DNA of 37,472 nucleotides from a bacterium. Its GTDB lineage: Bacteria > UBP6 > UBA1177. The stretch lies in the NCBI GenBank assembly GCA_017405875.1, contig JAFQZM010000008.1:1-37472 (forward strand). Direction: 5' to 3'. The translations under genes and the position numbers were made by a program. This document shows positions 2,059 through 18,247 of this stretch, piece by piece; positions within the stretch are counted from its first letter, which is position 1, and each line of letters begins with the position of its first letter. A model generated the notes under the pieces. That model was not told the origin of the DNA. It made no database searches and saw only the letters and a program-made list of their open reading frames with translations.

Positions 2059-5000
2059 ATGAAGATTTTCAAGATTTTGATTTGTGTTGCGTTTGTTCTT
2101 GTCGTTTCCGCGTGTCACGGCAAAAAGGAGACTATTTACGATTATCCCGATGACGACCCTACAACTGCTGAAAAAGGGAATGTCGGTGATCCGTGCGAAA
2201 AAAACGACGACTGCAAAGAGGGTCTTCTCTGCATTGACAAAGTGTGCAGCGAACCTGTCAAAGATGAAGACTCAACCGACGATTCAGACGAAAATCCCGT
2301 CGATGATAAAGACGATACAGACACCACTCCGACGGATGATGCCGATTCGGACACGAACGACCCTGACATCACTCCGACGGACGATGATACCGATACAAGC
2401 TCGAATGACGAAGACGAACCGGAAGACTCAGACACTAAGCCTGATGAAGACAAAGACATTCCGGAATACATTCCCGAATGCGGCAACGGTCTCCGCGATC
2501 CCGGCGAAGAGTGCGACAACGGTGCCAGCAACAGCGACCAACCCGGCAGCTACAGCACATGCCGTACGAACTGCCTGAAGGCGAGATGCGGCGACGGTAT
2601 CAAGGACGAAGGCGAAATCTGCGACGACGGAAACAATTCGGACGGAGACTACTGCAGCAAAAACTGCAACAGCATCACAGGCAGCTGCGGAGACGGTAAA
2701 CTGCAGGTCAACGAAATTTGTGATTCCGCTCTTGATCCCTGCTGTACCGACGACTGTTCAGAAATTGTTGAAGGATGCGGCTGCGGAGACGGTATAGTTC
2801 AGCGCAACGAAGTATGCGATAACGCCGAACCCGGCGAAGGCGGCGGTGAAGGCATCGGACCTTACTACTGCAACCTTAACTGCACAGAAATCATCGGAAG
2901 CTGCGGTGACGCGAGACATCAGGACAATGAAGCGTGTGACGACGGCAACAACAACGGTCGTTACGGTTACTGCAACTCGACATGTAGCGGCAGAACTTAC
3001 TGCGGAGACGGTATCGTTCAGCACGGGAACGAAGAATGCGACTGGGCAGATCCTGAAGAAGACAGCTATTGCTCAAGCGACTGCCAAGAGATCGGAAGCT
3101 GCGGCGACGGTCTTATCCAGAATAGTAATGAATGCTCCGCAAAATATGCGGATCTTGGTTTCAGCAGTGTTGCAGAGTGCGAGACTAAACTTGCCGGCAT
3201 TAACGAAGCCTGCGACAATTCAAAAAACGGTCAAGGAACCGGTGCTTACTGCTCAGCCGACTGCAGAACAAGCTACGGCGCGTGTGGCGACGGTATAATC
3301 CAGCGCGGGAACTGCGGTATTGAGGAAAACTGCACCGAAATCGCAGGCTCGACCTTGAACGAAGAGTGTGACAACGGCGAAAGCAACGGAAACCTCTACT
3401 GCCCGTACGGTCTTGCTACCAGCTGTAAAGTGTGTGACAAGTCCTGCAAAAAACAAAACGGTTATCCGATGTACTGCGGTGACGGCCGTGTCAGTTCGGC
3501 GGATGGCGAAGCTTGCGACAAAAATAACTTAGACGATCCGAAACGAGAATACTGCGCCGACAACTGCAGATATTATATCGGAGAGTGCGGTGACGGTATC
3601 ATTCAAGAGGGAATCGAATTCTGCGATCCGAACAAGGCAGACGATCCGAGGTCACCCTACTGCTCATCCGACTGCAAAACGGTAACAGGCGGCTGCGGCG
3701 ACGGCATCCTCAACCGCATGAACTGCGACGGATACGGGGCAAACTGCCAAGTTACCACAGGAGCAAACGAAGAGTGTGACGACGGAACAAACAACAGTCA
3801 GACGGTCGTCGACTGCCCGTACTTTACCGACAAAACGGAATGTACGTTCTGCAATATATCCTGCGAACTCGAACAAGGAAAAGTGAGATACTGCGGCGAC
3901 GGACTCACTCAGACCGGATATGAAGAATGCGACGACGGCAACTCGAAAAACGGAAAATACGGTTTCTGCAACAGCGACTGCTCAGGCTATATGCCGAAAT
4001 GCGGCGACGGAATCATCGACCGGGAGAACTGCAACGGCTTCGGAGAAAACTGCAGGGTTACATCCGGCGCGAACGAAGCTTGCGACAACGGTGCAAACAA
4101 CGGCAAAACGGCATGTGAATACGGCGAAGAAAACTGCAAGGTCTGCACCACAGACTGCACAGAAACAGACGGAACAATAACAGCTTACTGCGGTGACGGT
4201 ATCATCCAGCGCGAAGACTGCGACGGCTTCAATATTTGTGATGAAAACATAACCGTAAACTGCTGTATCGTTACCGAAGGCATCAACGAATCCTGCGATG
4301 ACGGCCAGGACAACGGAACTCCGGGTCACTGCAGAGCGGGATGCTACAGCGGCAGCGAATACTGCGGCGACGGAGATAAAACCGGCGACGAAATATGCGA
4401 TGACGGAACGAACAACGGTCAGTACGGTTATTGTGCTTCCGACTGTATGAGCGAAGGCAGGCGCTGCGGCGACGGTATAATCGAGACAGCTTACGGCGAA
4501 GAGTGTGATGACGGCGAAAACAACGGGCACTACTCTCCCAATAGTCAAGGCTACTGCAGCAGTGAATGCAAATTACAGGGCGGTCTCGGCTACTGCGGCG
4601 ACGGTATAATCCAGCGCGAAAACTGCGACGGCTTTGATATTTGCGATGAAAACATAACCGTAAACTGCTGCATCGTCACACCCGGCGCTAACGAAGCCTG
4701 CGATGCAGGAGAAAACAACGGTCAAACAGCATGTGAATACGGCGACAAAAGCTGTACAGTCTGCACCTCGTCATGTCTGAAGCAAAACGGAACCACATCA
4801 TACTGCGGAGACACAATAATTGACTCCCTGCACGGTGAAGATTGCGATGAAGGCTCGGCAAACGCAGATTACAACGCGATCTGTGACACGAATTGCAAAG
4901 AGAATCCTCCAAGATGCGGCGATGGTGTCATAGACGATGAATTTGATGAAATCTGCGACCAAGGCGACGGCTATGACGGATTTAACGGACGCTATTCTTC

Positions 5001-7962
5001 ATCATCAGATCCTTACTGCAGCAGCGACTGCAAGAGCTTCGGCAGCGGCGGATGGTGCGGCGACGGTCTGCCCAACGGACATGAAACCTGTGACAGCGCT
5101 GCCATGAACGGTCACTACGGCGGATTCTGCAACAACAACTGTACAGGCTTTACGCACAAGTGCGGCGACTCTTACATTGACACTGAGCACGGAGAGATCT
5201 GCGACGACCACGCCAACAACGGAAATTACGGTTACTGCGACAGCGAATGTCAGTTCATTCTTAAATGCGGTGACGGAATATGGCAGAAAACAAACTGCGG
5301 AGGAGAAGCAGGCTGCACGGAAGTTCCGGGTGCTGACGAGCAGTGCGACTACGGAGAAACACTGAACGGCTCAACGACAAAATGTGCTTACGGCTTAGAG
5401 AACTGCAGCCTCTGCGACAGCGAATGCAACAAATTTGAAGGTGAAACCTCCTACTGCGGCGACAGTATCACCGATGAAACCAACGACGAATTTTGTGACA
5501 GCGGAAAAGCAAACAACGGAAGCTACAATTTCTGCAGAACAGACTGCAAAGGCTGGATGCCAAGATGCGGCGACGGTTTCATCGACCGCGAGAACTGCGA
5601 CGGCTTAGGAGAAAACTGTCGAGTCACACCCGGCGCAAACGAGGAATGCGACGATGGTGAGGAAAACGGAAATTACGATAAATGCAACACACTCTGTTCC
5701 GGAATAATCAAATGCGGCGACGGCGACATAACCGACGGTGAAACCTGCGACGACGGACCGTTTAACGGACATTACAACCACTGTGACGAAACATGCAGAA
5801 AAGAAAAGACAGGTACATGCGGCGACGGAATTCTGCAAAAAGAAATAGGATACTGCGGCGGAGAAGCAGGCTGCGTTGAACTCATCGGTGCTGACGAGCA
5901 GTGCGATGCAGGTTACAGCAACAACGGCTTATTTACAGACTGTGATTACGGTATTGATTATTGCGAATTCTGCGACAGCAATTGCAAAATACTTATCGGA
6001 AACACTTCATACTGCGGTGACGGAACAGTTGACAGCGAACACGGCGAAAAATGCGATGACGGTATAGCCGACGGATCCTTCGGACACTGTGACAAAGAAT
6101 GCCAGATTATGGTCAATTACAGATGCGGTGACGGCAAAATCCAAAAAAGGAACTTGGAAGAGTGCGGAGACCGTCCTATATGCAGTGACAGTCTGACAGA
6201 AAACTGCTGTGAAGTCGTCGAATTCGCTCAAGGCGACCTGGCCGAAATCTGCGATGACGGAGCTCTTAACGGCACACCACAGCACTGCAACTCGACATGC
6301 ACCGGTTGGACCTACTACTGCGGCGACGGAATCATACAAAGAAGAAACTGCGAAGGCTACGGAGATAACTGCTTTGCCGATGCAACCTTAACCGAGGATG
6401 AGGAGTGCGACGATGCCGGCAGCAACGGCTATTACGGTTTCTGCAAAGAAGACTGTTCAGGCAAACGCGAAGAAAAATGCGGTGACGGAATTCTGCACAC
6501 CGGAGACTGCACTGATTACGAACACTGTTATACCGATCCTGACACAGGAGACTTCATCTGCCCCGACAAACCAAACTGTTCTGTAGTTCCCGGAGCATCA
6601 GAGATGTGCGACGAAGGTGTGGACAACGGTCTTTACTATGGTCACTGCGACGAATACTGTTCCGGCACAACAGCAAACGGCTACTGCGGTGATAAAAAAA
6701 TACAGAAAGAAACTGAAGAAGAGTGTACAGCCCTGCTTCCTGACACGCCGCGCTGTCCTGAAACGAATTCTCAAGGAATTTGCTGTGAAGTAGTATCTTT
6801 CAAATCCGGCGAAGAAAACAAGAAGGAAATTTGCGACGAAGGCAAAGATGACAACGGCTACCACGGTCACTGCAACGAAACATGCAATGGAATATCTTCC
6901 TGCGGCGACGGAGCGATCGGTAAGGATGAAATCTGTGAACAGAACGATATGCTCGGTATGATGCCTTGTAATCTCATTTCACAGTTCCAGAGCGGCACTA
7001 TCGGCAACTGCGACGACAAATGTACACCCGACCTCACCGGATGCGTAAGCGCAGACTCACACACAAGTCCTTTCTTCAAAACCGGACAGACACTCTGCTA
7101 CAACAACAGCTCTGTAGAGACATGCACGGGTAATACCGGCAGCGATTTTTACGGTCAGGAACCTGAACCGAATTTCAGCTACACGGCTCAGCATTTCGAG
7201 CTTAGAAGTGAAGACACTGTGGTTGAAGAGGCTGTTTCGGGATTGTTCTGGCAGAGAGATACTCTGGGCAACTACGGTTATGAAAAAGAAGGTGAAATTC
7301 ACTATTTCTGTGACGCTCATTCGTCCTGTACATTTGAGGAAGCCGACGGCTACTGTACAGATCTGACGCTCGGAGGTTACAGAGACTGGAGACTGCCGAC
7401 AATCGCCGAATTCTCGACTATTATGAACTACTACGGCAATGAGAACCGCATCGACTCGATTTTCACCAACACAAGAGAAGAATACTGGACACAGGAAGGA
7501 AAAATCTTCTCATCGGTAAACGGAACTCTTGCCAATCCCGAAAACAACAGCACGCATCAGATAAAATGCGTACGCTCCGGCAACGGCTGCACAACACTCC
7601 AGTGTATGCCGAAAGAAGAGTTGCTGATTTTTGATTTCGGAGATTCTGCGGTCACATCTGACGATGACTCTGTGTTCGTATTCTGGTACTTCGGCTTAGG
7701 CAATTCAAAATACTACGGCACATGGGAACAGGCTCTCGAATACTGCAAAAACAGGGACGTCAACGGTTTGAACAAAATGAGACTTCCTACAGTCAATGAA
7801 CTCATATCACTTATCGGCTCGAGAAGAATCATAACAGACAAGGCTTGGACATCCACTACGGTTAAAGGAGACGCTACCAAAGCTTATGCCGTTGATTTTT
7901 CGAATACTTTAGTAACAACCGACAGCAAAAACACCGTCAACTATGTAATTTGTGTTGAATAG
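2059..7962 (+). CDS. Giant Cys-rich repeat lipoprotein with two C-terminal DUF1566 domains
   Basis: This 1967-aa secreted protein starts with a lipoprotein signal peptide (lipobox V-S-A-C, Cys19), so it is probably membrane-anchored and exported. Residues about 30-140 form an Asp/Thr/Glu-rich linker with one small Cys cluster (GDPCEKNDDC). About 32 units follow, each starting CGDG or a variant (CGNG, CGDA, CGDS, CGDT, CGDK) and most continuing with E-x-C-D-D-G. This is the Myxococcus Cys-rich (disintegrin-like) repeat pattern, presumably disulphide-bonded. The last ~280 residues hold two DUF1566 (Lcl_C) units with the landmarks GLFWQR, DWRLPTIAEF and MRLPTVNEL. The start is supported by AGGAG seven bases upstream. 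The next gene starts 10 bases after the stop and shares the DUF1566 part, so the two are probably co-transcribed. A surface or adhesive role is inference; no enzyme motif is seen. Confidence 0.9.
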   Translation: MKIFKILICVAFVLVVSACHGKKETIYDYPDDDPTTAEKGNVGDPCEKNDDCKEGLLCIDKVCSEPVKDEDSTDDSDENPVDDKDDTDTTPTDDADSDTNDPDITPTDDDTDTSSNDEDEPEDSDTKPDEDKDIPEYIPECGNGLRDPGEECDNGASNSDQPGSYSTCRTNCLKARCGDGIKDEGEICDDGNNSDGDYCSKNCNSITGSCGDGKLQVNEICDSALDPCCTDDCSEIVEGCGCGDGIVQRNEVCDNAEPGEGGGEGIGPYYCNLNCTEIIGSCGDARHQDNEACDDGNNNGRYGYCNSTCSGRTYCGDGIVQHGNEECDWADPEEDSYCSSDCQEIGSCGDGLIQNSNECSAKYADLGFSSVAECETKLAGINEACDNSKNGQGTGAYCSADCRTSYGACGDGIIQRGNCGIEENCTEIAGSTLNEECDNGESNGNLYCPYGLATSCKVCDKSCKKQNGYPMYCGDGRVSSADGEACDKNNLDDPKREYCADNCRYYIGECGDGIIQEGIEFCDPNKADDPRSPYCSSDCKTVTGGCGDGILNRMNCDGYGANCQVTTGANEECDDGTNNSQTVVDCPYFTDKTECTFCNISCELEQGKVRYCGDGLTQTGYEECDDGNSKNGKYGFCNSDCSGYMPKCGDGIIDRENCNGFGENCRVTSGANEACDNGANNGKTACEYGEENCKVCTTDCTETDGTITAYCGDGIIQREDCDGFNICDENITVNCCIVTEGINESCDDGQDNGTPGHCRAGCYSGSEYCGDGDKTGDEICDDGTNNGQYGYCASDCMSEGRRCGDGIIETAYGEECDDGENNGHYSPNSQGYCSSECKLQGGLGYCGDGIIQRENCDGFDICDENITVNCCIVTPGANEACDAGENNGQTACEYGDKSCTVCTSSCLKQNGTTSYCGDTIIDSLHGEDCDEGSANADYNAICDTNCKENPPRCGDGVIDDEFDEICDQGDGYDGFNGRYSSSSDPYCSSDCKSFGSGGWCGDGLPNGHETCDSAAMNGHYGGFCNNNCTGFTHKCGDSYIDTEHGEICDDHANNGNYGYCDSECQFILKCGDGIWQKTNCGGEAGCTEVPGADEQCDYGETLNGSTTKCAYGLENCSLCDSECNKFEGETSYCGDSITDETNDEFCDSGKANNGSYNFCRTDCKGWMPRCGDGFIDRENCDGLGENCRVTPGANEECDDGEENGNYDKCNTLCSGIIKCGDGDITDGETCDDGPFNGHYNHCDETCRKEKTGTCGDGILQKEIGYCGGEAGCVELIGADEQCDAGYSNNGLFTDCDYGIDYCEFCDSNCKILIGNTSYCGDGTVDSEHGEKCDDGIADGSFGHCDKECQIMVNYRCGDGKIQKRNLEECGDRPICSDSLTENCCEVVEFAQGDLAEICDDGALNGTPQHCNSTCTGWTYYCGDGIIQRRNCEGYGDNCFADATLTEDEECDDAGSNGYYGFCKEDCSGKREEKCGDGILHTGDCTDYEHCYTDPDTGDFICPDKPNCSVVPGASEMCDEGVDNGLYYGHCDEYCSGTTANGYCGDKKIQKETEEECTALLPDTPRCPETNSQGICCEVVSFKSGEENKKEICDEGKDDNGYHGHCNETCNGISSCGDGAIGKDEICEQNDMLGMMPCNLISQFQSGTIGNCDDKCTPDLTGCVSADSHTSPFFKTGQTLCYNNSSVETCTGNTGSDFYGQEPEPNFSYTAQHFELRSEDTVVEEAVSGLFWQRDTLGNYGYEKEGEIHYFCDAHSSCTFEEADGYCTDLTLGGYRDWRLPTIAEFSTIMNYYGNENRIDSIFTNTREEYWTQEGKIFSSVNGTLANPENNSTHQIKCVRSGNGCTTLQCMPKEELLIFDFGDSAVTSDDDSVFVFWYFGLGNSKYYGTWEQALEYCKNRDVNGLNKMRLPTVNELISLIGSRRIITDKAWTSTTVKGDATKAYAVDFSNTLVTTDSKNTVNYVICVE

Positions 7963-9319: not shown

Positions 9320-10225
9320 CTACTTCGATTTTTTCTGAGTTTTTTTCTCTGCTCTTGTTTCTTCTGTTTTAGGTTCTGCTTTTGTTTTCTGAAAAAGTTT
9401 CCAGCCGCCGATAAAAAGAAAAATCGAAATCCACTGACTTGTCGAAAATATAAGGAAACTTCCGCGTATATCGAAACGCAGGAATTCGATCAGAAAGCGG
9501 GTTACGGAATATGAAAGAAGAAAAACTGCCGAAATATATCCGGGATTTTTCTGATTTTTGGAAAAGGCAAGTTTCAAAAGAACCGCGAATATTACGAAAT
9601 TGCTGAAAGAATGAATAAGCTGCGTCGGAATTATCGGCTGCGTGTCGGTAAAAAGACTCGTGTTGTCAGGGTCAAGCTGGTAAAGCAGAAACATCGTCTT
9701 CGAGCCTTGAGGAAAGCGTATTCCGAAAAGTTCCGACGGTCTTCCGAAACAGCACCCTTCAAGAAAACAGCCGATTCTAGTTAACCAGAGTCCGTTTGCG
9801 ACACAAATTGAAGCAGCATCGGCTGTTTTGAGGAATGATTTTCCATCGTGAGGATAGGCGATCAGAGTAAAAAGCGCGCCGGCAATAAAACCGCCTAAAA
9901 GCCCGCCGTAAAAGACATGACCCGGAGTAAAAGGATTAAGCATCGAAGTAAAAAGATAGGAGATTCCGTTCACTCTCAAGCCGTCAAGATAAAGCGAAAG
10001 CCTGCCTTCGAACAAAATATGAAAAATCTTTGAAACAACAAGGGCGGACGGCACAATGACAAGAGGCATGAAAATCATCTTTTTCAGACTCAGACCGAAC
10101 TGTTTCGACGAAAAAATCATTATCGGAACAGTCATGAAAAACGAAAAAAAGAGGATAGTCATGTATGCGCCGGGATAACCGAAACCGAAATAGTCAAAAA
10201 TCGGCTTGAAGAAATTAATATTCAT
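9320..10225 (-). CDS. Prolipoprotein diacylglyceryl transferase (Lgt) family membrane protein
   Basis: This 301-aa polytopic membrane protein has Lgt-family landmarks: the GGLLGG turn, and near residues 145-170 the segment TRIGCFLEGCCFGRPSELFG, which matches the Lgt signature region (R-I-G-x-F-x-x-G-x-x-x-G-R). A late R-F-x-x-E-x-x-R segment is also present. Lgt transfers diacylglycerol to the Cys of lipoprotein precursors in the inner membrane. The divergent signature (CFLEGCC in place of NFxNxE) suggests a paralogue rather than the canonical enzyme, so I give no gene symbol. Its ATG overlaps the stop of the upstream MinD-like gene (ATGA) and is preceded by AGGAG, implying translational coupling. 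It is the last gene of a five-gene operon. The C-terminus is rich in Lys and Glu. Its stop codon abuts that of the convergent DUF1566 gene. Confidence 0.8.
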   Translation of the reverse strand: MNINFFKPIFDYFGFGYPGAYMTILFFSFFMTVPIMIFSSKQFGLSLKKMIFMPLVIVPSALVVSKIFHILFEGRLSLYLDGLRVNGISYLFTSMLNPFTPGHVFYGGLLGGFIAGALFTLIAYPHDGKSFLKTADAASICVANGLWLTRIGCFLEGCCFGRPSELFGIRFPQGSKTMFLLYQLDPDNTSLFTDTQPIIPTQLIHSFSNFVIFAVLLKLAFSKNQKNPGYISAVFLLSYSVTRFLIEFLRFDIRGSFLIFSTSQWISIFLFIGGWKLFQKTKAEPKTEETRAEKKTQKKSK

Positions 10226-11841
10226 CGTTTCTCCTGATTATTCTCGACATTTTCAGCAACTTCCGCCGAAGGCACGTTCTTAGATTTTAAGTAACCGGAA
10301 GCGATGAGTTCTGTATTCGACGCATTCATTTTCAGTGTTTTGCAGTACTGCTGAACGAAATTTTTGACATAAAGATCGGCTGGAAGCTGTGCATATTTGT
10401 CGTTTTCTATCGCATCGAGAACCATCTTTGATATTTTGGTGCGCGAAATGATAAGTTCATACGATATTCCGACTTCCTCACGGATTTTTCTAAGCAGATC
10501 TCCTGTCACAGGCAAATCGCGGTATTTATTAAAGATTTCATTGGCATCCACAAAATCGCTGCTGGAAGATGCAACAACTTTCTTTTCGGCACTCCGCCCG
10601 AAAACGTCCTTTTTGACGAGGACTTCACGCTTTTTTACGCGGTTATACTTTTTGATGACTTCGCCTATCATGAAAATATCGGGGAATGAAGTCTCGAGCG
10701 ACAGAAGATGGCTGCTTATGTCCATATCGTATTCGCGCCTTATTTCCGAGTCGTTAAGCTCTTTGAAAATCGTATCAATGAGGGAATTGAGTATAAAAAG
10801 ATCGCTGTCGCTGTAAACGTCACGCATCATCGGATTTTCGCCGACATAAAGTTTTTTAAGCTTTTCATACTGGTTGTTGATGTCGAATGTCGAACAGCCG
10901 CGGTCAAGACCGAACCATTCATAGTAGTTGAACGGCGTGACTTTAAGTTTTTTCTTAATCGAACTCTGCTGAAAAAGGTTTGCGGAAAGCGTGCTTGCGA
11001 ACTTGTCGAGAGCGTCCACGAATTCGGCGTTTTTCTCAAGAGTTACGACAGGTTTCATCGTAGCGACTGAGGTCGGAACCAGATCGGAATAGGCTATTTC
11101 AGCTATGGAATCGGTCTCAATGCCGAAACTGTTGCTGATTAAGAACCGGTAAGGCTGCACGAGTTCCTTGTCAGCCGAATTGCGCACGCCGTTGTAAACG
11201 ATTCCTATTTTCAGGTCGTTCACTATGTTCGCAATCTGACTGGCAGTTTTCGGAATCGCCTGGGAAAGCAGGACGAGCAGGTTCCGCGAAGTGAAAAGAT
11301 AGTCGTTTTTGGCACGCCTTATATTCTGCGTTTCAAGCTGGATGTCGTATTTAAGTTCGACATTGCGAAGCCTGTAATTGAAAAGTTCCCTGAAAAAATA
11401 GTTGCTTTTTTCAAACGAAATAAAGTCCGGGGAAAGGAACATGAGCGAATAGTCGGCAATCCCTATGACATCCATGAGATCGTGATTTATTACCGAACCC
11501 ATGTCGATGAAAACGAAATCGAACTGAACCTGACCCATCTCGCCCTGCCAGCGCGTAAGAAGTTCGCTGATTTTAGAGCCCTGATGCTGCAGGTTGCTGA
11601 AAAAACTAAGATTCTGATAATCAGTCGAAATAAGCGGCAGCACAGAAAAATGTTCTGCGACTTCATCTGAAACGGCTATCGTCGGAAGATTCAGGTAGGA
11701 ATGAAGCGTTCCGCCGTTCGGAGCCGCATCGATCAGAAGGACTTTTTTTCCTTTCTGGGCAAGGTAAATCGAAAGATTCGCGATTATCATCGAAGTTCCC
11801 GCTCCCCCTTTCGGAGAAAATGCCGCAATCAGCTTTACCAT
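10222..11841 (-). CDS. MinD/ParA-like ATPase fused to J-like and RodZ-type HTH domains
   Basis: This 539-aa protein appears to combine three modules. Residues 1-290 are a MinD/ParA-type ATPase with a deviant Walker A (KGGAGTS, residues 11-17) and a Walker-B-like segment FVFIDMGS. Residues about 303-372 look like a DnaJ-type helical domain (YYEWFGLDRGCSTFDINNQY ... REYDMD) without the HPD tripeptide needed to stimulate Hsp70. Residues about 446-518 match the HTH_25 domain of RodZ-like proteins (LLRKIREEVGISYELIISRT ... AQLPADLYVKNFVQQYCKTL). No membrane helix is predicted by eye. The start has GGGGTGA upstream. It lies 15 bases after the ankyrin gene and overlaps the Lgt-family gene by 4 bases. 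A role in positioning or organising an envelope or polar structure is inference from the domain families. Confidence 0.85.
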   Translation of the reverse strand: MVKLIAAFSPKGGAGTSMIIANLSIYLAQKGKKVLLIDAAPNGGTLHSYLNLPTIAVSDEVAEHFSVLPLISTDYQNLSFFSNLQHQGSKISELLTRWQGEMGQVQFDFVFIDMGSVINHDLMDVIGIADYSLMFLSPDFISFEKSNYFFRELFNYRLRNVELKYDIQLETQNIRRAKNDYLFTSRNLLVLLSQAIPKTASQIANIVNDLKIGIVYNGVRNSADKELVQPYRFLISNSFGIETDSIAEIAYSDLVPTSVATMKPVVTLEKNAEFVDALDKFASTLSANLFQQSSIKKKLKVTPFNYYEWFGLDRGCSTFDINNQYEKLKKLYVGENPMMRDVYSDSDLFILNSLIDTIFKELNDSEIRREYDMDISSHLLSLETSFPDIFMIGEVIKKYNRVKKREVLVKKDVFGRSAEKKVVASSSSDFVDANEIFNKYRDLPVTGDLLRKIREEVGISYELIISRTKISKMVLDAIENDKYAQLPADLYVKNFVQQYCKTLKMNASNTELIASGYLKSKNVPSAEVAENVENNQEKR

Positions 11842-11856
11842 TCAGTTCACCCCGTA

Positions 11857-12570
11857 TTACAGTTTTTCCTTTATTTTCTGTGTGTAGGCTGCGATTTCGT
11901 CAAATGTTCCGCTGTCAAGACGCCCGGCTTCAAGCGATTCAGCCGCATAGTCAAGAGCCGTTTTTCCGCTGAAATCCTTTGAAAGAGGCGAAACATTAAG
12001 CGACATGAGAAATTTTGCATAATCAGCATAACCTTTTTCGGCTGCGATTATAAAAAGAGTTTTTTTCTCTTTGTCGCGCCTTTCGATATCGGTTGATTTT
12101 CCCACAAGTATTTTGAATAATTCAACATTTTCTTCTTTGGCAAGACTTAAGAGAGTATTTGCCGCATCGCGCCCGAAATTATCCTGAAGATTGGCGTCGG
12201 CACCGTTTTCAAGCAGAAACTCCGCACATGCAAAAGAGTTTCCCGCTGCGGCGTAGTGAAGCGGAGTCTTTTCGGAATTATCCATAATTTTTAGATTTGC
12301 TCCTGCGGCTGCCAGCTTTTTAAGCATCGTGCAGTCTTTTTTGGCAGAGGCGAGCATAACTGCGTTTCTTCCCGATTTGTCGGCAAAGTTAAGAAGTTCC
12401 GGCATTTTGAGAAAAATATCGAGAGCTTTTTCATCGTCATTCCGAACCGCTTCCAAAAGCCCTGTTCCGTCGGCTTCGTAACCCGCTTTTTTTAGCAGAG
12501 AAGCGTTGTCACTTGAACATGAAACTGAAAGAAAAACAGCTAAAAAAATGAATAAAATCAAAGATTTCAT
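11857..12570 (-). CDS. Ankyrin-repeat lipoprotein
   Basis: This 237-aa protein has a lipoprotein signal peptide (MKSLILFIFLAVFLSVSC, lipobox S-V-S-C) followed by five to six ankyrin repeats from about residue 35. Repeat landmarks include GRNAVMLAS, KTPLHYAAAGNSFACAEFLL, NGADANLQDNFGRDA and GKTALDYAAE. Ankyrin repeats mediate protein contacts; this one would be anchored on the periplasmic side. An alternative in-frame ATG at 12594 overlaps the FHA gene stop (TAATG) and would add eight residues before the signal peptide. I chose 12570 because the signal peptide then starts normally, but coupling through 12594 cannot be excluded. It is the third gene of the five-gene operon. Confidence 0.85.
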   Translation of the reverse strand: MKSLILFIFLAVFLSVSCSSDNASLLKKAGYEADGTGLLEAVRNDDEKALDIFLKMPELLNFADKSGRNAVMLASAKKDCTMLKKLAAAGANLKIMDNSEKTPLHYAAAGNSFACAEFLLENGADANLQDNFGRDAANTLLSLAKEENVELFKILVGKSTDIERRDKEKKTLFIIAAEKGYADYAKFLMSLNVSPLSKDFSGKTALDYAAESLEAGRLDSGTFDEIAAYTQKIKEKL

Positions 12571-12593
12571 TTGCAAAACTTCTTTAAGGCGCA

Positions 12594-13481
12594 TTAAAGA
12601 ACAAAAAAGAATACCGCGCCTGCGGCAGCGGCAGCAACGGCAAGAACAAGCAGGATAACGGCGATTTTTTTGCCCGCTCCCGATTTGTTTACGCGGGTGA
12701 TTTCGGTTTTTTCATCCTGTTCCTCGTCGTTGATGCTTTTTATTTTCTTCCCTTTTATATCTTTTCTGAGTTTTTCCTTTCTCGATTTTTCAGCCTCGAG
12801 CTGATAAGGCTGCGGGTCGTACTCTTCCCCTTTTTCGATGAATTCGAAGATGAAATCGCCGACTCTGATCTCGTCGCCGTTTCTCATATCGACCGAATTG
12901 ACCACTGTATCGTTCACGATAAGCGGATAGTCGGCGTTGTAGTCGCCTTTTACCAGCAGATAGATGTTGCCGTCGAAAACGATTTTCGAGTGGATCGGCG
13001 GAATATCGTCTGCCGAAAGATAGACATCGGCGCTCGCGTGGGTTCCGATGACGGTTTCGCGGCCTGCAAGCGGGAAAATCTTTCCGCCGAGATAGCCGTT
13101 CTTTGCAAGAAGAAGGTTGTCGGCAGCGATTTTTTTAACGTCAGGCTCTACAGCAGGCTGAACTGTCTTGAGAAGCAGATCTTCGTCCTGCTCGAGATAG
13201 ATGTTGTAATCACCGACAGTGATCACGTTTCCGACAAAGATTTCGAGTTTTTCGTCAACAAGTTCGCGCTCGTCGACATAAGTGTGGTTGTAGCTTCCGC
13301 GGTCGCAGATGATGATCCTTCCGTCTACGATCTCAAGCTGAAAATGGTATCTCGACACGTTTCTTTCATCGAGGACAAGGTCGTTTTTCGGACTTCGACC
13401 GACGGTGATAAGATTGCCGTTGAATTCAAAAATGTTAAGTTCGTTTCTGTCGTTTTCGACTATGAGTTTCAGCAGAGCCAT
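12594..13481 (-). CDS. Membrane-anchored protein with two FHA domains
   Basis: This 295-aa protein has a clear N-terminal FHA domain (about residues 20-100: VGRSPKNDLVLDERNVSRYH, then DRGSYNHTYV). A second, more divergent FHA-like domain follows (about 125-215: VIGTHASADVYLSADDIPPIHS, then NGDEIRVGDFIFEF). A charged linker then leads to a C-terminal membrane helix (about 273-295, Ala/Val-rich) at the extreme end. FHA domains bind phosphothreonine peptides, so a Thr kinase should exist elsewhere in the genome; none is seen here. Both domains would face the cytoplasm, with the tail helix in the inner membrane. The start has GAGG upstream and lies 17 bases after the preceding gene. Confidence 0.9.
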   Translation of the reverse strand: MALLKLIVENDRNELNIFEFNGNLITVGRSPKNDLVLDERNVSRYHFQLEIVDGRIIICDRGSYNHTYVDERELVDEKLEIFVGNVITVGDYNIYLEQDEDLLLKTVQPAVEPDVKKIAADNLLLAKNGYLGGKIFPLAGRETVIGTHASADVYLSADDIPPIHSKIVFDGNIYLLVKGDYNADYPLIVNDTVVNSVDMRNGDEIRVGDFIFEFIEKGEEYDPQPYQLEAEKSRKEKLRKDIKGKKIKSINDEEQDEKTEITRVNKSGAGKKIAVILLVLAVAAAAAGAVFFFVL

Positions 13482-13498: not shown

Positions 13499-14569
13499 TT
13501 ACCGCAGAATTTTCAACAATTTATCGAATCTGTCAAACATTCCTGAAAAATCTCTGTTTTCTTCCTCGAATCTGCGGACTTTTTCGCCGATATCAAGGGC
13601 AAGCAGGCGCTTTTTTTCAGGCTGAAGCAGAGAAGCAGCGGTTTTCAGCAAAAGATAAAGTATCTCGTCAAGATACCTGTGATACTCGCCGAAGCGGTAT
13701 CCGGCGGCAACAGATTTTCTTTCGTCAAGCATACTCTCCCAGTTTACGCTCGAAGTTTCAGTTGAAAACGAAAGTTCCGAATAAAACTGCGGATACCTGC
13801 CGCGAAGATATGAAAAAAGTTTTTCAGAAAGTTCTTTCAGTTTGTCTGCCGGCACAACTTTCAAAAAAGCATCGAAAACGAGCCTGAAACAGCCGAAATA
13901 AAGCTCGGCTTCCGTCTGAACGGGATCATTTTCAAGAAAATCAAGACCGCTGCTGAAAAAAGATGAAGCCAGAATTTTTTCCGAAATCTTTTTGCAGAGG
14001 ACCGCCGGCTTGGAAACATCGAGCGAACCTAAATACGAGCCGAATTTCACCGCGTTTTTCTCAAGGACATAGCGTTTTTTCTCAGGATCGAAATAGGCAA
14101 ACCCTTTGAAATTCCCTTTTTCAAAAGAGACAATGTTCATCGCCGGTCCGTGTTTAAAGCAGAGAAGCGCATTTTCCTTATTTTCCGCAAACGATGAAAC
14201 GAGCTTCATCACGTCAACGAAACGCCCCTGTGCAAAAAGCGAAACCGGATAAGTGAAAAAATCCGTAAGCCACGTGAAAACAAAATCGCTGCTTATGCTG
14301 AAAAGATAAAGATCGACCGATTTTTCACTCAGGATCTCATTGACAGGAACATCGGTCACCAGATCTTCTTCATCGGAAAAAGCCAGCACTTTCGAAATGA
14401 CCGCGCGCCCGTCTGAAATCAGCACATAAAGCGTCTTATTGCCCGCTTCGGCAAGCACCAAACCGCGGCTTGGAGTACTTTCGCGCGCCAGATCGTTGAC
14501 AAAAGACGGGATATATTTCCCTTCAAAATCTGCAATATAAAGTTTTAATTCAGAAAAAGGAATGATCAT
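13499..14569 (-). CDS. Unrecognised 356-aa protein, first gene of the FHA/ankyrin/MinD operon
   Basis: I do not recognise this family. The protein is mixed alpha/beta, without a signal peptide or clear membrane helix, and begins MIIPFSELKLYIADFEGKYI. The first ~90 residues (LYVLISDGRAVISKVLAFSD and around) could be a small sensory or scaffold domain, and the C-terminal part is helical and charged. I chose ATG 14569, preceded by a G-rich stretch (GGGGGCGG), because a good promoter lies at 14592-14620 and excludes the upstream in-frame ATG at 14677. It heads an operon encoding FHA, ankyrin and MinD-like proteins, so it probably works with them in a signalling or envelope-organisation role (inference). 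Confidence 0.8.
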   Translation of the reverse strand: MIIPFSELKLYIADFEGKYIPSFVNDLARESTPSRGLVLAEAGNKTLYVLISDGRAVISKVLAFSDEEDLVTDVPVNEILSEKSVDLYLFSISSDFVFTWLTDFFTYPVSLFAQGRFVDVMKLVSSFAENKENALLCFKHGPAMNIVSFEKGNFKGFAYFDPEKKRYVLEKNAVKFGSYLGSLDVSKPAVLCKKISEKILASSFFSSGLDFLENDPVQTEAELYFGCFRLVFDAFLKVVPADKLKELSEKLFSYLRGRYPQFYSELSFSTETSSVNWESMLDERKSVAAGYRFGEYHRYLDEILYLLLKTAASLLQPEKKRLLALDIGEKVRRFEEENRDFSGMFDRFDKLLKILR

Positions 14570-14591
14570 GCCGCCCCCAACAAGTCCATTC

Positions 14592-14620
14592 CTTATAGCA
14601 CAGACGATTTTTTTTTGCAA
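14592..14620 (-). promoter_or_regulatory. Sigma70-type promoter of the five-gene minus operon
   Basis: On the minus strand, TTGCAA (14620-14615) and TATAAG (14597-14592) are separated by 17 bases. The expected start point is near 14585, leaving a leader of about 16 bases before ATG 14569. It overlaps no coding sequence if that start is used. Confidence 0.6.
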
Positions 14621-14628
14621 AATGAAAT

Positions 14629-14656
14629 TTGCCTTATTCTGACCTCTCTGTATAAT
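14629..14656 (+). promoter_or_regulatory. Sigma70-type promoter of pepF
   Basis: TTGCCT (14629-14634) and a perfect TATAAT (14651-14656) are separated by 16 bases, about 44 bases before the pepF ATG. It is back to back with the promoter of the minus-strand operon. Confidence 0.6.
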
Positions 14657-14699
14657 CATTCGCTTTTTTGCTTTCATTTTTCATTGAGAGAGGTGAATT

Positions 14700-16466
14700 A
14701 TGGATAATCGCTGGAATCTTGATGCTCTTTATACAGGTTTTGATTCGCCTGAATTTATAGGCGACTGCAAAAAACTCGATTCAAAAAATGAAGAATACGA
14801 AAATTTTGCGAACACCCTTTCCCAAAGCGGCGATATCCTTGAAATTCTGAAAAAATACGTTGCATTAAAATCCGAGATCTCAGCGCTGACCGAAAAACTT
14901 CTCTGCTTTGCAAACCTCTCTTTCTGCGCCGATACGAACAATGCAAAGGCAAATTCCTACATCGAACTGATCTCAATCAGGCAGAACAGAAGTTCACTTG
15001 CCGATGTTAAATTCATAAAATGGCTCACCTCCAGCGGATTCGAGCCTAAAACTCTGCGCGGAACCGATCTTGAAGAGTGCATTTTTCACTTTGAAGAGCT
15101 CATCACGAAAGGGCGTCACATTCTCGACGACCAGACGGAACAGATCATTTCCAACCTCAAACTGGTCGGTTCTTCCTCCTGGATGAATCTCCACAATGTC
15201 CTCATAGGTTCTCTCACCGGCAAAATTTCGACTGTGGACGGAAGAATCGAAATAAAACCGATTTCCCAGATCCGTGCAATGGCGTATTCCGAAGATGCAG
15301 ACGTGAGGAAAAAGGCTTACGAAGCGGAAATCAGGGCTTACAGAAAAGTCGAAAAGGCAGTTGCTGCCTGCATCAACTCGATAAAAGGAGAATCGATCAT
15401 TCTGGCGAGGATGCGCGGCTACGCTTCACCGCTTGAAATGGTTCTTACCAAAAACAGAATGGAAAAAAGCATAATCGACACGATGTTTTCGGCAATCAGA
15501 GAATATCTCCCCTGCTTCAGGGCTTACTACAAAAAGAAAGCAAAGATGCTCGGGCTCAGCGGTTCTCTTCCGTTTTATGACATTTTTGCGCCGGTAACAG
15601 CCAAGGCGCAGTCAAACTTCACATACGAAGAAGCGGCAAAATTCATTGTTGAAAAATTTTCGACTTTCAGCAGGAAACTCGGAGACTTTGCAAAAAACGC
15701 TTTCGACAATAACTGGATCGATTCCGAAATAAGACCGGGAAAAGTGGGCGGCGCCTTCTGCGAAAACCTTTTTTCGATTTCGCAGAGCAGGATCCTCGCG
15801 AACTTCGGCAGTTCGTACAACGATGTCACGACAATCGCTCACGAACTCGGCCACGCATTCCATGGTCACTGCCTTTCAAACAACGTGATTTTGAACACCG
15901 GCTACCCTTCTCCGCTTGCCGAAACCGCTTCGATTTTCTGCGAAACGATAATCAACAAAGCTGCGCTCAAAGAGGCTGACAAAGAGAGTGCTCTCGCCAT
16001 TCTTGAATCCGCAATCTCCTCTGCCGGACAGGTCATAGTCGATATTTACAGCAGATATCTTTTCGAGACGGCGCTTTTCAAAGCACGCGAAGTTGCACCG
16101 CTTTCACCCGAACAGCTCTGTGAAGAGATGACCAAGGCGCAGATAGAATCTTACGGCGACGGACTTGATGAAAATGTTCTTCATCCTTATCTCTGGCTCA
16201 TCAAACCGCACTACTACAATCCCGACTGGAATTTCTACAACTTCCCCTATGCGTTCGGTCTCCTTTTCGCAAAAGGGCTCTACGCAAAATATACCGAAAC
16301 CGGCAGCAGTTTCGCCGAAAAGTATGAATTTCTCCTTTCGGAAACTGGCAAACGCAGCGTGACCGACGTTGCGAAAATAGTTGACGTTGACCTTAACGAC
16401 ATAAACTTCTGGAAAAACTCTCTCGAGCTCATCAAAGAAGATATCTCGAAATTCCTCGATTTATGA
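14700..16466 (+). CDS. pepF: Oligoendopeptidase F (M3 family zinc metallopeptidase)
   Basis: This 588-aa protein has the M3 zinc-binding motif HELGH (residues 381-385, in TIAHELGHAFHG). The third-ligand helix follows about 25 residues later (PLAETASIFCE, Glu408 the likely ligand). The length is close to the usual ~600 residues of PepF enzymes, which are cytoplasmic and cleave short peptides. The N-terminal opening (WNLDALYTGFDSPEF) is typical of the clade. The start is supported by GAGAGAGGTG upstream and its own promoter. Its last codons overlap the transglycosylase gene (ATGA), implying coupled translation. Confidence 0.93.
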   Translation: MDNRWNLDALYTGFDSPEFIGDCKKLDSKNEEYENFANTLSQSGDILEILKKYVALKSEISALTEKLLCFANLSFCADTNNAKANSYIELISIRQNRSSLADVKFIKWLTSSGFEPKTLRGTDLEECIFHFEELITKGRHILDDQTEQIISNLKLVGSSSWMNLHNVLIGSLTGKISTVDGRIEIKPISQIRAMAYSEDADVRKKAYEAEIRAYRKVEKAVAACINSIKGESIILARMRGYASPLEMVLTKNRMEKSIIDTMFSAIREYLPCFRAYYKKKAKMLGLSGSLPFYDIFAPVTAKAQSNFTYEEAAKFIVEKFSTFSRKLGDFAKNAFDNNWIDSEIRPGKVGGAFCENLFSISQSRILANFGSSYNDVTTIAHELGHAFHGHCLSNNVILNTGYPSPLAETASIFCETIINKAALKEADKESALAILESAISSAGQVIVDIYSRYLFETALFKAREVAPLSPEQLCEEMTKAQIESYGDGLDENVLHPYLWLIKPHYYNPDWNFYNFPYAFGLLFAKGLYAKYTETGSSFAEKYEFLLSETGKRSVTDVAKIVDVDLNDINFWKNSLELIKEDISKFLDL

Positions 16467-18247
16467 ACACCAAACTTAAAAGAATAACTGCGGCAGTCAT
16501 TTTTCTGCTCGTTTCGGCGGCAGTCGTTATTTTTGCGCTTGAAAAAGTTTCAAAAGGAAAAATCGACGGGTTTTCATCGAAAGCGACCGCTCTGATAAAG
16601 GCTAAATACGGCATCGACTCTGAAATTTCGGGGCTTGACATATCGCTTTTCCCGCCGTGGATATTCGTCAAAAAAGCAGTTTTTTCTCTCGGCGGAAGCG
16701 AACTCGCCGCACTGGAAGAATGTTCTCTGGGAAATCTCCGGAAAATGCTTTTTTCAGATGAAAAAAAGTTGAAGATAACCTGCGCTAAATCTACTGTTCA
16801 TGCGGACAAGGCAGTAAAAGCGCCATTTTTATCAGGCAAAGAAAAGGACCCCAAAAAAGAAAAAAATGAAAACCGCCGGAATACCGATTTTTCGATAGAT
16901 TTTTCAACCGACGCCGACTTTATTTTCGGCAGCGTAACGCAGAGTTTTAAAACCGACTTAACCGTGTCGCGCTCAGGCGGCAAGGCGCTTTTCAAAGAGC
17001 TCGGCGAAGCAAACGGCGGAACCGCCGAGATCCGCTTTTCGCTTAAAGATAAAAGCGCTTCGGTGCGGCTTGACGGAATTGATTTGAATGATTTTCACGA
17101 AATCATAAAAAACAAAACCTCTTTTGACGTTTCAGCCGGAAAAATCAGCTCTTTTTCTGAAATTTCGGAAGAAAAAGGAAAATTTCTCCTGAAAAACGAC
17201 ATGACGATCCACGACCTGACCTTTTTCCATCCGCTGATCGATTCCCAGCCCTTCACACTGCCGCTTTTCCGCTTCAAAGGTGACGTAGCTTTCGACAAAG
17301 ACGAAAAATCTGCCGAAATAAAAGAGGCAGAACTTTCTCTCGGTGGCATCAATGCGGTATTTTCTGGAAGTTACAGCAAAACATCAAAGAATTTTTCGAT
17401 AAAAACCGAATCGGCGAATCTCAACAAACTCGAAACTCTGATACACGACGAAGCGTTCGAAGGCTACCTCTTCGGCGGAACGCTTGAACTTCTGGCGGAA
17501 TACTCGCAGGAAGGCGACGAACCGCCGTTTTTTTCAGTCGTCGGCAACCTTATCGAGCCGAAACAGCTTTCGGAGCGCATGGACTACCTCAAACTGCCTT
17601 TCGAATACGTCTGGACCAACGAAAACGGAAGCACGAGAAAAATCTTCGTCGGCGAGCGAAATCCTGATTTCACGCCGATATCGCTCATTCCCGACCATCT
17701 CATCTGGGCGGTCATCGTTTCAGAAGACGCCGGATTTTTCGTCCACAAAGGTGTCGATTTTCAGGAACTCGACGCGGCAGTAAAAGACAACATCAAAAAA
17801 CACAAACTGCGCGGCGGTTCTACTATCCCGCAGCAGCTTGCCAAAAACCTCTTCCTCAACCGCGACAAAACGCTCCTTCGCAAATTCCGCGAAGTCCTGC
17901 TTGCAATAGAACTCGACGCGGCCCTTTCAAAAGAGCGCCTTCTTGAAATTTATTTCAACATAATCGAGTGGGCACCCGGCATTTTCGGCATCTCGCAGGC
18001 GGCATACTACTACTTCGGAAAGCAGCCGTATCAGCTCACCCCGCTCGAATCGGCATATTTAGCCTCCGTAATTCCCGGCCCCGCAAAATACCACTTCATG
18101 TTTCTGACAAAAAACGTGACCGAAAACTGGTACAAAAGCCTCTACCGGATACTCAACATCATGAACGAGACCGGACACCTCTCGACCGACGACTACTTCG
18201 AAGCACTCCAGCAGTCGATAGTTTTCAGGGAAGTTGAGGAAAATTGA
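16463..18247 (+). CDS. GT51 peptidoglycan transglycosylase with AsmA-like N-terminal region
   Basis: This 594-aa protein has an N-terminal membrane anchor (about residues 7-27). A long beta-rich region of ~380 residues follows, which looks AsmA-like (repeated LKDKSASVRLDGIDLNDF-type strands, and FSGSYSKTSKNFSIKTESAN). The C-terminal GT51 domain runs from about 405 to 575. GT51 motifs are SEDAGFF (catalytic Glu near 422), RGGSTIPQQLAKN (near 450) and KERLLEIYFNIIEW. GT51 enzymes polymerise lipid II glycan strands in the periplasm. There is no transpeptidase domain, so it is monofunctional (MtgA/Pbp1-like). The start overlaps the pepF stop by 4 bases. The fused N-terminal part is the unusual point. 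Confidence 0.88.
   Translation: MNTKLKRITAAVIFLLVSAAVVIFALEKVSKGKIDGFSSKATALIKAKYGIDSEISGLDISLFPPWIFVKKAVFSLGGSELAALEECSLGNLRKMLFSDEKKLKITCAKSTVHADKAVKAPFLSGKEKDPKKEKNENRRNTDFSIDFSTDADFIFGSVTQSFKTDLTVSRSGGKALFKELGEANGGTAEIRFSLKDKSASVRLDGIDLNDFHEIIKNKTSFDVSAGKISSFSEISEEKGKFLLKNDMTIHDLTFFHPLIDSQPFTLPLFRFKGDVAFDKDEKSAEIKEAELSLGGINAVFSGSYSKTSKNFSIKTESANLNKLETLIHDEAFEGYLFGGTLELLAEYSQEGDEPPFFSVVGNLIEPKQLSERMDYLKLPFEYVWTNENGSTRKIFVGERNPDFTPISLIPDHLIWAVIVSEDAGFFVHKGVDFQELDAAVKDNIKKHKLRGGSTIPQQLAKNLFLNRDKTLLRKFREVLLAIELDAALSKERLLEIYFNIIEWAPGIFGISQAAYYYFGKQPYQLTPLESAYLASVIPGPAKYHFMFLTKNVTENWYKSLYRILNIMNETGHLSTDDYFEALQQSIVFREVEEN

Follow-up and report, generated by a model that had tools for sequence, protein, structure and literature searches.

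ATPases of the ParA/MinD superfamily depend on partner proteins for their cargo, and for many orphan members no partner is known (PMC10241942). In B. subtilis MinD, ATP binding is disrupted in the K16A mutant, a locked dimer is expected of D40A, and the ATPase activity of either mutant is negligible (PMC13246001). TadZ of E. rectale has neither Walker lysine yet is still ATPase-active, another lysine compensating (as cited in PMC10482377). The HTH domain of RodZ binds MreB, an interaction weakened by F60A, and most of the periplasmic part of RodZ is dispensable (PMC6946637); contact between RodZ and MinD has been seen by two-hybrid assay in B. subtilis (PMC5778138). J-like domains without the HPD motif act as docking modules in ARC6 and CJD1 (PMC3196505), and SflA, a DnaJ-domain protein, acts in the FlhF/FlhG pathway of Vibrio (PMC7226244).

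The window analysed here is a 37,472-nucleotide stretch of contig JAFQZM010000008.1 (assembly GCA_017405875.1) from a bacterium of the uncultured phylum UBP6. At 10222–11841 the earlier note, which gave no strand, had placed a MinD-like ATPase fused to a J-like domain without HPD and a RodZ-type HTH. The gene lies on the minus strand. Full-length fused orthologues are found in 15 other genomes (41–97% identity) and two-gene orthologues in four more, so the open reading frame is real and not a chance one. Pfam, profile searches and fold comparison bear out all three modules, CbiA, J-like and HTH_25, in the one protein, which is organized as follows.

10222–11841, minus strand: fusion gene MinD-like/J-like/HTH_25, 539 aa, ATG start.
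10972–11841, minus strand: MinD/FlhG-fold domain, residues 1–290 (Pfam CbiA, PDB profile search, Foldseek).
11791–11811, minus strand: degenerate deviant Walker A motif KGGAGTS, residues 11–17, with K11 kept and T16 in place of the P-loop Lys.
11722–11724, minus strand: Ala40 at the place of the catalytic Asp (LLIDAAPN; D40 of MinD), invariant in the alignment of the order.
10726–10929, minus strand: J-like domain, residues 305–372 (Pfam DnaJ, profile, AlphaFold/Foldseek).
10837–10845, minus strand: VGE, residues 333–335, at the place of HPD (family alignment).
10318–10497, minus strand: RodZ-type HTH_25 domain, residues 449–508 (Pfam, structure matches).
10357–10371, minus strand: aromatic pair Y491...F495, aligned with two Tyr of T. 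maritima RodZ (2wus).

The fused combination corresponds to no named architecture in the libraries searched, and no description of it was found in the open-access literature. A role in anti-phage defence was rejected, the PADLOC matches being weak and generic, as was identity with a phage ParA, since the PHROGs match is to a generic ParA-like partition family only.

The N-terminal module has the MinD fold. Pfam CbiA (MinD/ParA) matches residues 5–265 at 42 bits, a profile of the MinD part matches MinD and FlhG in the PDB at E 2e-11, and the closest solved folds in Foldseek are FlhG, FleN and MinD (FlhG entries 4rz2 and 4rz3 at E 2e-9 to 6e-9). The signature lysine of the deviant Walker A motif, K11, is invariant (alignments A1 and A6). 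The P-loop Lys is replaced by Thr16 in all members of the order, where the motif reads KGGxGTS (A1 and A6), and the motif that follows reads DAA, with Ala40 in place of the catalytic Asp again invariant throughout the order (A6). Ala40 aligns opposite the position of A. aeolicus MinD that is Ala in 4v02 and Asp in 4v03. Fold, family profile and signature lysine place the module in the ParA/MinD superfamily, and the UBP6 protein naturally bears changes at the equivalents of both K16 and D40. Its description as a deviant Walker A ATPase holds for the fold and for K11, but the word ATPase is doubtful, since no member of the order retains either of the residues on which binding and hydrolysis of ATP most depend. 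We predict from these residues that the UBP6 module would not cycle ATP. The activity of E. rectale TadZ means that loss of K16 is no proof of lost nucleotide handling; hence we speak of a predicted non-cycling module.

The J-like assignment had been open to the objection that residues 303–372 might match no J-domain profile and adopt a different fold; it survives on both counts. Pfam DnaJ matches residues 305–372 of the window protein at 15 bits (E 0.026), below the curated cut-off, covering positions 1–63 of the 63 in the profile. The same profile, PF00226, is matched by 19 of 20 relatives (best E 2.2e-7), and a profile of the segment that includes two Myxococcota rows finds the J-domains of solved structures at E 5.5e-8. 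Modelled by AlphaFold (mean pLDDT 77), the J-HTH part shows the helix order of a J-domain, and Foldseek matches it to J-domains at probability 1.00 and target-normalised TM up to 0.8–0.86, but with E values of at least 0.02. The HPD motif is absent from all UBP6 and Myxococcota rows aligned, VGE standing in its place in the window protein, and the segment is acidic.

The C-terminal module is matched by Pfam HTH_25 at 449–508 (59 bits, E 3e-16), and the J-HTH model also matches the RodZ/YmfM-type HTH structures 3fym and 2wus. Against T. maritima RodZ, taken from the co-crystal entry with MreB, Y491 and F495 fall on its Tyr pair, and both are invariant in the fused family (A1). The second RodZ aromatic of the pair we take to be an MreB contact; the residue equivalent to Y64 is non-aromatic in several Myxococcota copies. 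A hydropathy scan found no transmembrane segment in the fusion protein, whereas RodZ has a single one after its HTH. In the order the J-HTH protein, fused or split, is the only full-length HTH_25 protein, with one strong HTH_25 match per genome; the other HTH_25 match in the window genome is partial and lies in an XRE-type regulator. MreB is present in 28 of the 28 genomes searched.

Genome content was tested family by family. A scan of 84,980 species gave 19 relatives, among them rumen and other MAGs, and the fusion family is confined to one order of UBP6. In three genomes of the same family (G016–G018) and one of the same order (G019) the protein is encoded by two adjacent genes, MinD and then J-HTH. 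With the MinD part of G055 as query, 78 of 97 genomes that we infer to be Myxococcota gave matches reaching E 1e-15 or lower, although the weaker matches cover the generic N-terminal half only. At 18 of 20 such loci besides G055, a J-like and/or HTH_25 open reading frame directly follows or overlaps the MinD-like gene; at five of the 18 only HTH_25 was recognised, and at one, L095, which is cut by the contig start, only the J segment. One of the remaining two loci is a second copy in its genome (L113) and the other runs to the contig end (L112). The ATPase motif of the Myxococcota homologues is intact, GKGGxGK[ST].

In the Myxococcota genome G067 a single frame of 737 codons holds all three parts, which adds another fusion. 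A tree that includes the Myxococcota rows, with long branches and deep rooting, requires two or more switches between the split and the fused state within UBP6; if the split state is ancestral, as in Myxococcota, these are two fusions, a provisional count. About three MinD/J-HTH fusion events are thus seen, and together with the adjacency of the separate genes they indicate that the two parts very probably act together. A J-like/HTH_25 protein is also encoded at L131:443-1099 in a Myxococcota genome (G064) that gave no MinD partner at the threshold applied. At L034:10085-11861 (G041, the single genome representing its phylum), an HNH endonuclease, a MinD-like ATPase and an HPD-less J domain stand in a row at a contig end. 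Three genomes searched in another phylum gave no match.

The neighbours of the fusion gene are transcribed in the same direction.

12594–13481, minus strand: operon partner with two FHA domains and a C-terminal transmembrane segment at 267–285 (Pfam FHA, 74 bits).
13499–14677, minus strand: operon partner without assigned family, with orthologues in the order.
11857–12594, minus strand: ankyrin-repeat probable lipoprotein, genus-specific (Pfam Ank_2, 87 bits).
9320–10225, minus strand: divergent Lgt paralogue, genus-specific (Pfam LGT, 120 bits).

Co-transcription is likely, since the fusion gene shares 4 nt with the Lgt-like gene downstream and 15 nt separate it from the ankyrin gene upstream. 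The product of 13499–14677 has no Pfam or NCBIfam match; its orthologues begin at its Met37, so the start of the longest open reading frame is probably too early. The proposal in the earlier note of an operon with FHA, ankyrin and Lgt-like genes stands for the first of these, which all three families of the order share. At this locus the ankyrin and Lgt-like genes occur in the window's genus alone, and as functional partners both were rejected because they are not conserved there. The Lgt-like product scores 99.5 against NCBIfam lgt, below the cut-off of 118.9; it is a weaker paralogue among five LGT matches in the window genome, one of which, elsewhere, is a much better match. Genomes of the phylum (G000 and relatives) have three to seven LGT-family matches each, unusual for prolipoprotein diacylglyceryl transferase.

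In the other genera of the order the row of genes begins with the protein of unknown family, the double FHA protein, an IF-2B/MtnA-like protein and a TPR/transglutaminase lipoprotein (shortened in one genus), and continues with MinD and J-HTH, a Ser/Thr kinase with PEGA, an Hsp33-like protein in some, and NAD kinase. For the window's genus, the genes of the kinase, the Hsp33-like protein and NAD kinase are grouped on a different contig (G000:C9), with the relocated orthologue of the operon Ser/Thr kinase at G000:C9:148881-150275 (L135:7882-9279). The FHA protein and the kinase are operon partners with evolutionary support, and the kinase's position next downstream elsewhere in the order strengthens the idea of phospho-regulation; the envelope-organising role suggested in the earlier note is still an inference. 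Genomes of the sister family (G025, G026 and G027) have nine to ten strong Ser/Thr kinase matches each, versus about two in the window's order. Elsewhere in the window, 2059–7962 (plus strand) encodes a giant 1967-aa lipoprotein with many Cys-rich CGDG...ECDDG repeats and a DUF1566/Lcl_C tail, its length varying from about 1400 to 1970 aa among close relatives in the loci read, and 16463–18247 (plus strand) encodes a protein with a Glycosyltransferase 51 (peptidoglycan transglycosylase) domain at 398–555, preceded by about 390 residues of AsmA-like look without a convincing Pfam match.

We tentatively favour a cytoplasmic positioning scaffold, in which a static base of MinD/FlhG type is fused to a dedicated adaptor whose HTH_25 domain would serve the cytoskeleton. 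The MinD-like module would act as a docking base held static or locked, as in TadZ, instead of cycling as an ATPase. The J-like and HTH_25 domains would form the dedicated adaptor of this MinD subfamily, the J-like domain as a protein-docking helix hairpin rather than an Hsp70 activator and the HTH_25 domain as the binder of a cytoskeletal or envelope partner. That partner would most plausibly be MreB, because in these MreB-bearing genomes the adaptor is the only full-length HTH_25 protein and it keeps both RodZ contact aromatics. To judge from gene order, the scaffold is probably under phosphorylation control by the FHA protein and the Ser/Thr kinase of the ancestral operon. The two-hybrid contact between RodZ and MinD and the place of SflA in the FlhG pathway give precedent for each link of this mechanism.

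Could the protein instead control a surface organelle at the cell pole, such as a pilus, a flagellum or a secretion machine, as FlhG/FleN or TadZ/CpaE do, with J-HTH as the organelle adaptor and MreB irrelevant? FlhG and FleN are its closest folds, a DnaJ-domain protein belongs to the Vibrio FlhF/FlhG pathway (PMC7226244), and TadZ likewise belongs to the MinD family and has an altered Walker A (PMC10482377). Yet no recognised pilus or flagellar genes occur in the operon of any genome read, nor are tad genes recognised near the fusion gene in these loci. The fusion protein has no TadZ-type receiver domain, and NCBIfam CpaE-type models score far below cut-off on it. We consider an organelle role unlikely.

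Direct replacement of RodZ, the MinD base taking over from the membrane anchor while HTH_25 holds MreB at the membrane, would account for the conserved aromatics and for the presence of MreB beside an MreC-like gene. Moreover, the fusion protein and a transmembrane RodZ are mutually exclusive within the phylum: a sister family without the fusion protein has an HTH_25 protein of 162–168 aa with a transmembrane segment, a short canonical RodZ. This exclusion, however, rests on that one family of three genomes, and G010, 96% complete and with MreB present, has neither fusion protein nor RodZ detected, so the genus as a whole does not depend on the protein for an essential MreB function. Furthermore, the pair is accompanied by a short RodZ-like protein bearing a transmembrane segment in G055 (Myxococcaceae-like), G068 and G092 (Anaeromyxobacter-like) and G067; hence it is not the RodZ of those Myxococcota lineages. 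Replacement of RodZ by the fusion protein is possible, not established, and in the direct form given here rather unlikely.

The HTH_25 fold is of XRE type, HTH_19 and HTH_3 profiles match it too, and relatives of ParA use the nucleoid as a matrix (PMC10241942), all of which would suit a DNA-binding domain and make the protein a nucleoid tether or a transcription factor with a ParA-like N terminus. The charge of the region argues otherwise, the HTH being near neutral (10 K+R, 9 D+E) and the J segment acidic. RodZ HTH domains of the same family bind MreB, not DNA (PMC6946637), and the best structural matches include RodZ/YmfM-type proteins. DNA binding therefore seems improbable. That the J-like domain works as an Hsp70 co-chaperone, remodelling a MinD-linked complex, is hardly credible, for all that its J fold is sound and the DnaK-bound J domain 5nro is matched too, given the loss of HPD in every UBP6 and Myxococcota row and the acidity of the segment.

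The scaffold reading has a wider and more doubtful form, in which a MinD base with a J-like/HTH_25 adaptor would be an unrecognised system, ancient in Myxococcota and UBP6 and repeatedly fused, and the UBP6 version a non-hydrolysing stand-in for RodZ in which docking through MinD does the work of the membrane anchor. The locus is more than a single odd fusion since it exposes a conserved MinD/J-HTH pair of which we found no description. Adjacency at nearly all sampled Myxococcota loci and repeated fusion name a likely partner for a whole orphan MinD subfamily, an assignment testable in the genetically tractable Myxococcus. If HTH_25 holds MreB, a single molecule would tie Min-type positioning to the cell-shape cytoskeleton, and a MinD-fold protein would be working without the ATPase cycle usually seen as its point.

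The fusion protein shares with FlhG, FleN and MinD the fold, the signature lysine K11 and a Walker B-like IDMG, and differs from them in its replaced P-loop Lys and catalytic Asp, a long helical insert and the added J-like and HTH_25 domains. TadZ/CpaE are also MinD-family proteins with an altered Walker A; the fusion protein has no receiver domain, its MinD domain starting at residue 1, and it keeps the signature lysine, whereas E. rectale TadZ is without both. RodZ proteins, including those of E. coli and T. maritima and the short form of the sister family, have the same HTH_25 with two MreB-contact aromatics. In the fusion protein this domain is C-terminal, with MinD-like and J-like domains added and neither a transmembrane nor a periplasmic part. 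ARC6, CJD1 and Pam16 share the J fold without HPD, which in them is used for docking, but these are eukaryotic organelle proteins that contain neither a MinD nor an HTH_25 domain. SflA of Vibrio is similar as a DnaJ-domain protein in the pathway of the MinD-like FlhG; it is membrane-bound, has a periplasmic TPR/Sel1 domain and no reported HTH_25, and is not fused to FlhG. The Myxococcota pair has the same two parts in the same order, also with HPD absent; it differs in that its ATPase motifs are intact, a long linker often separates J from HTH, and the parts are two genes (fused only in G067 among the loci read).
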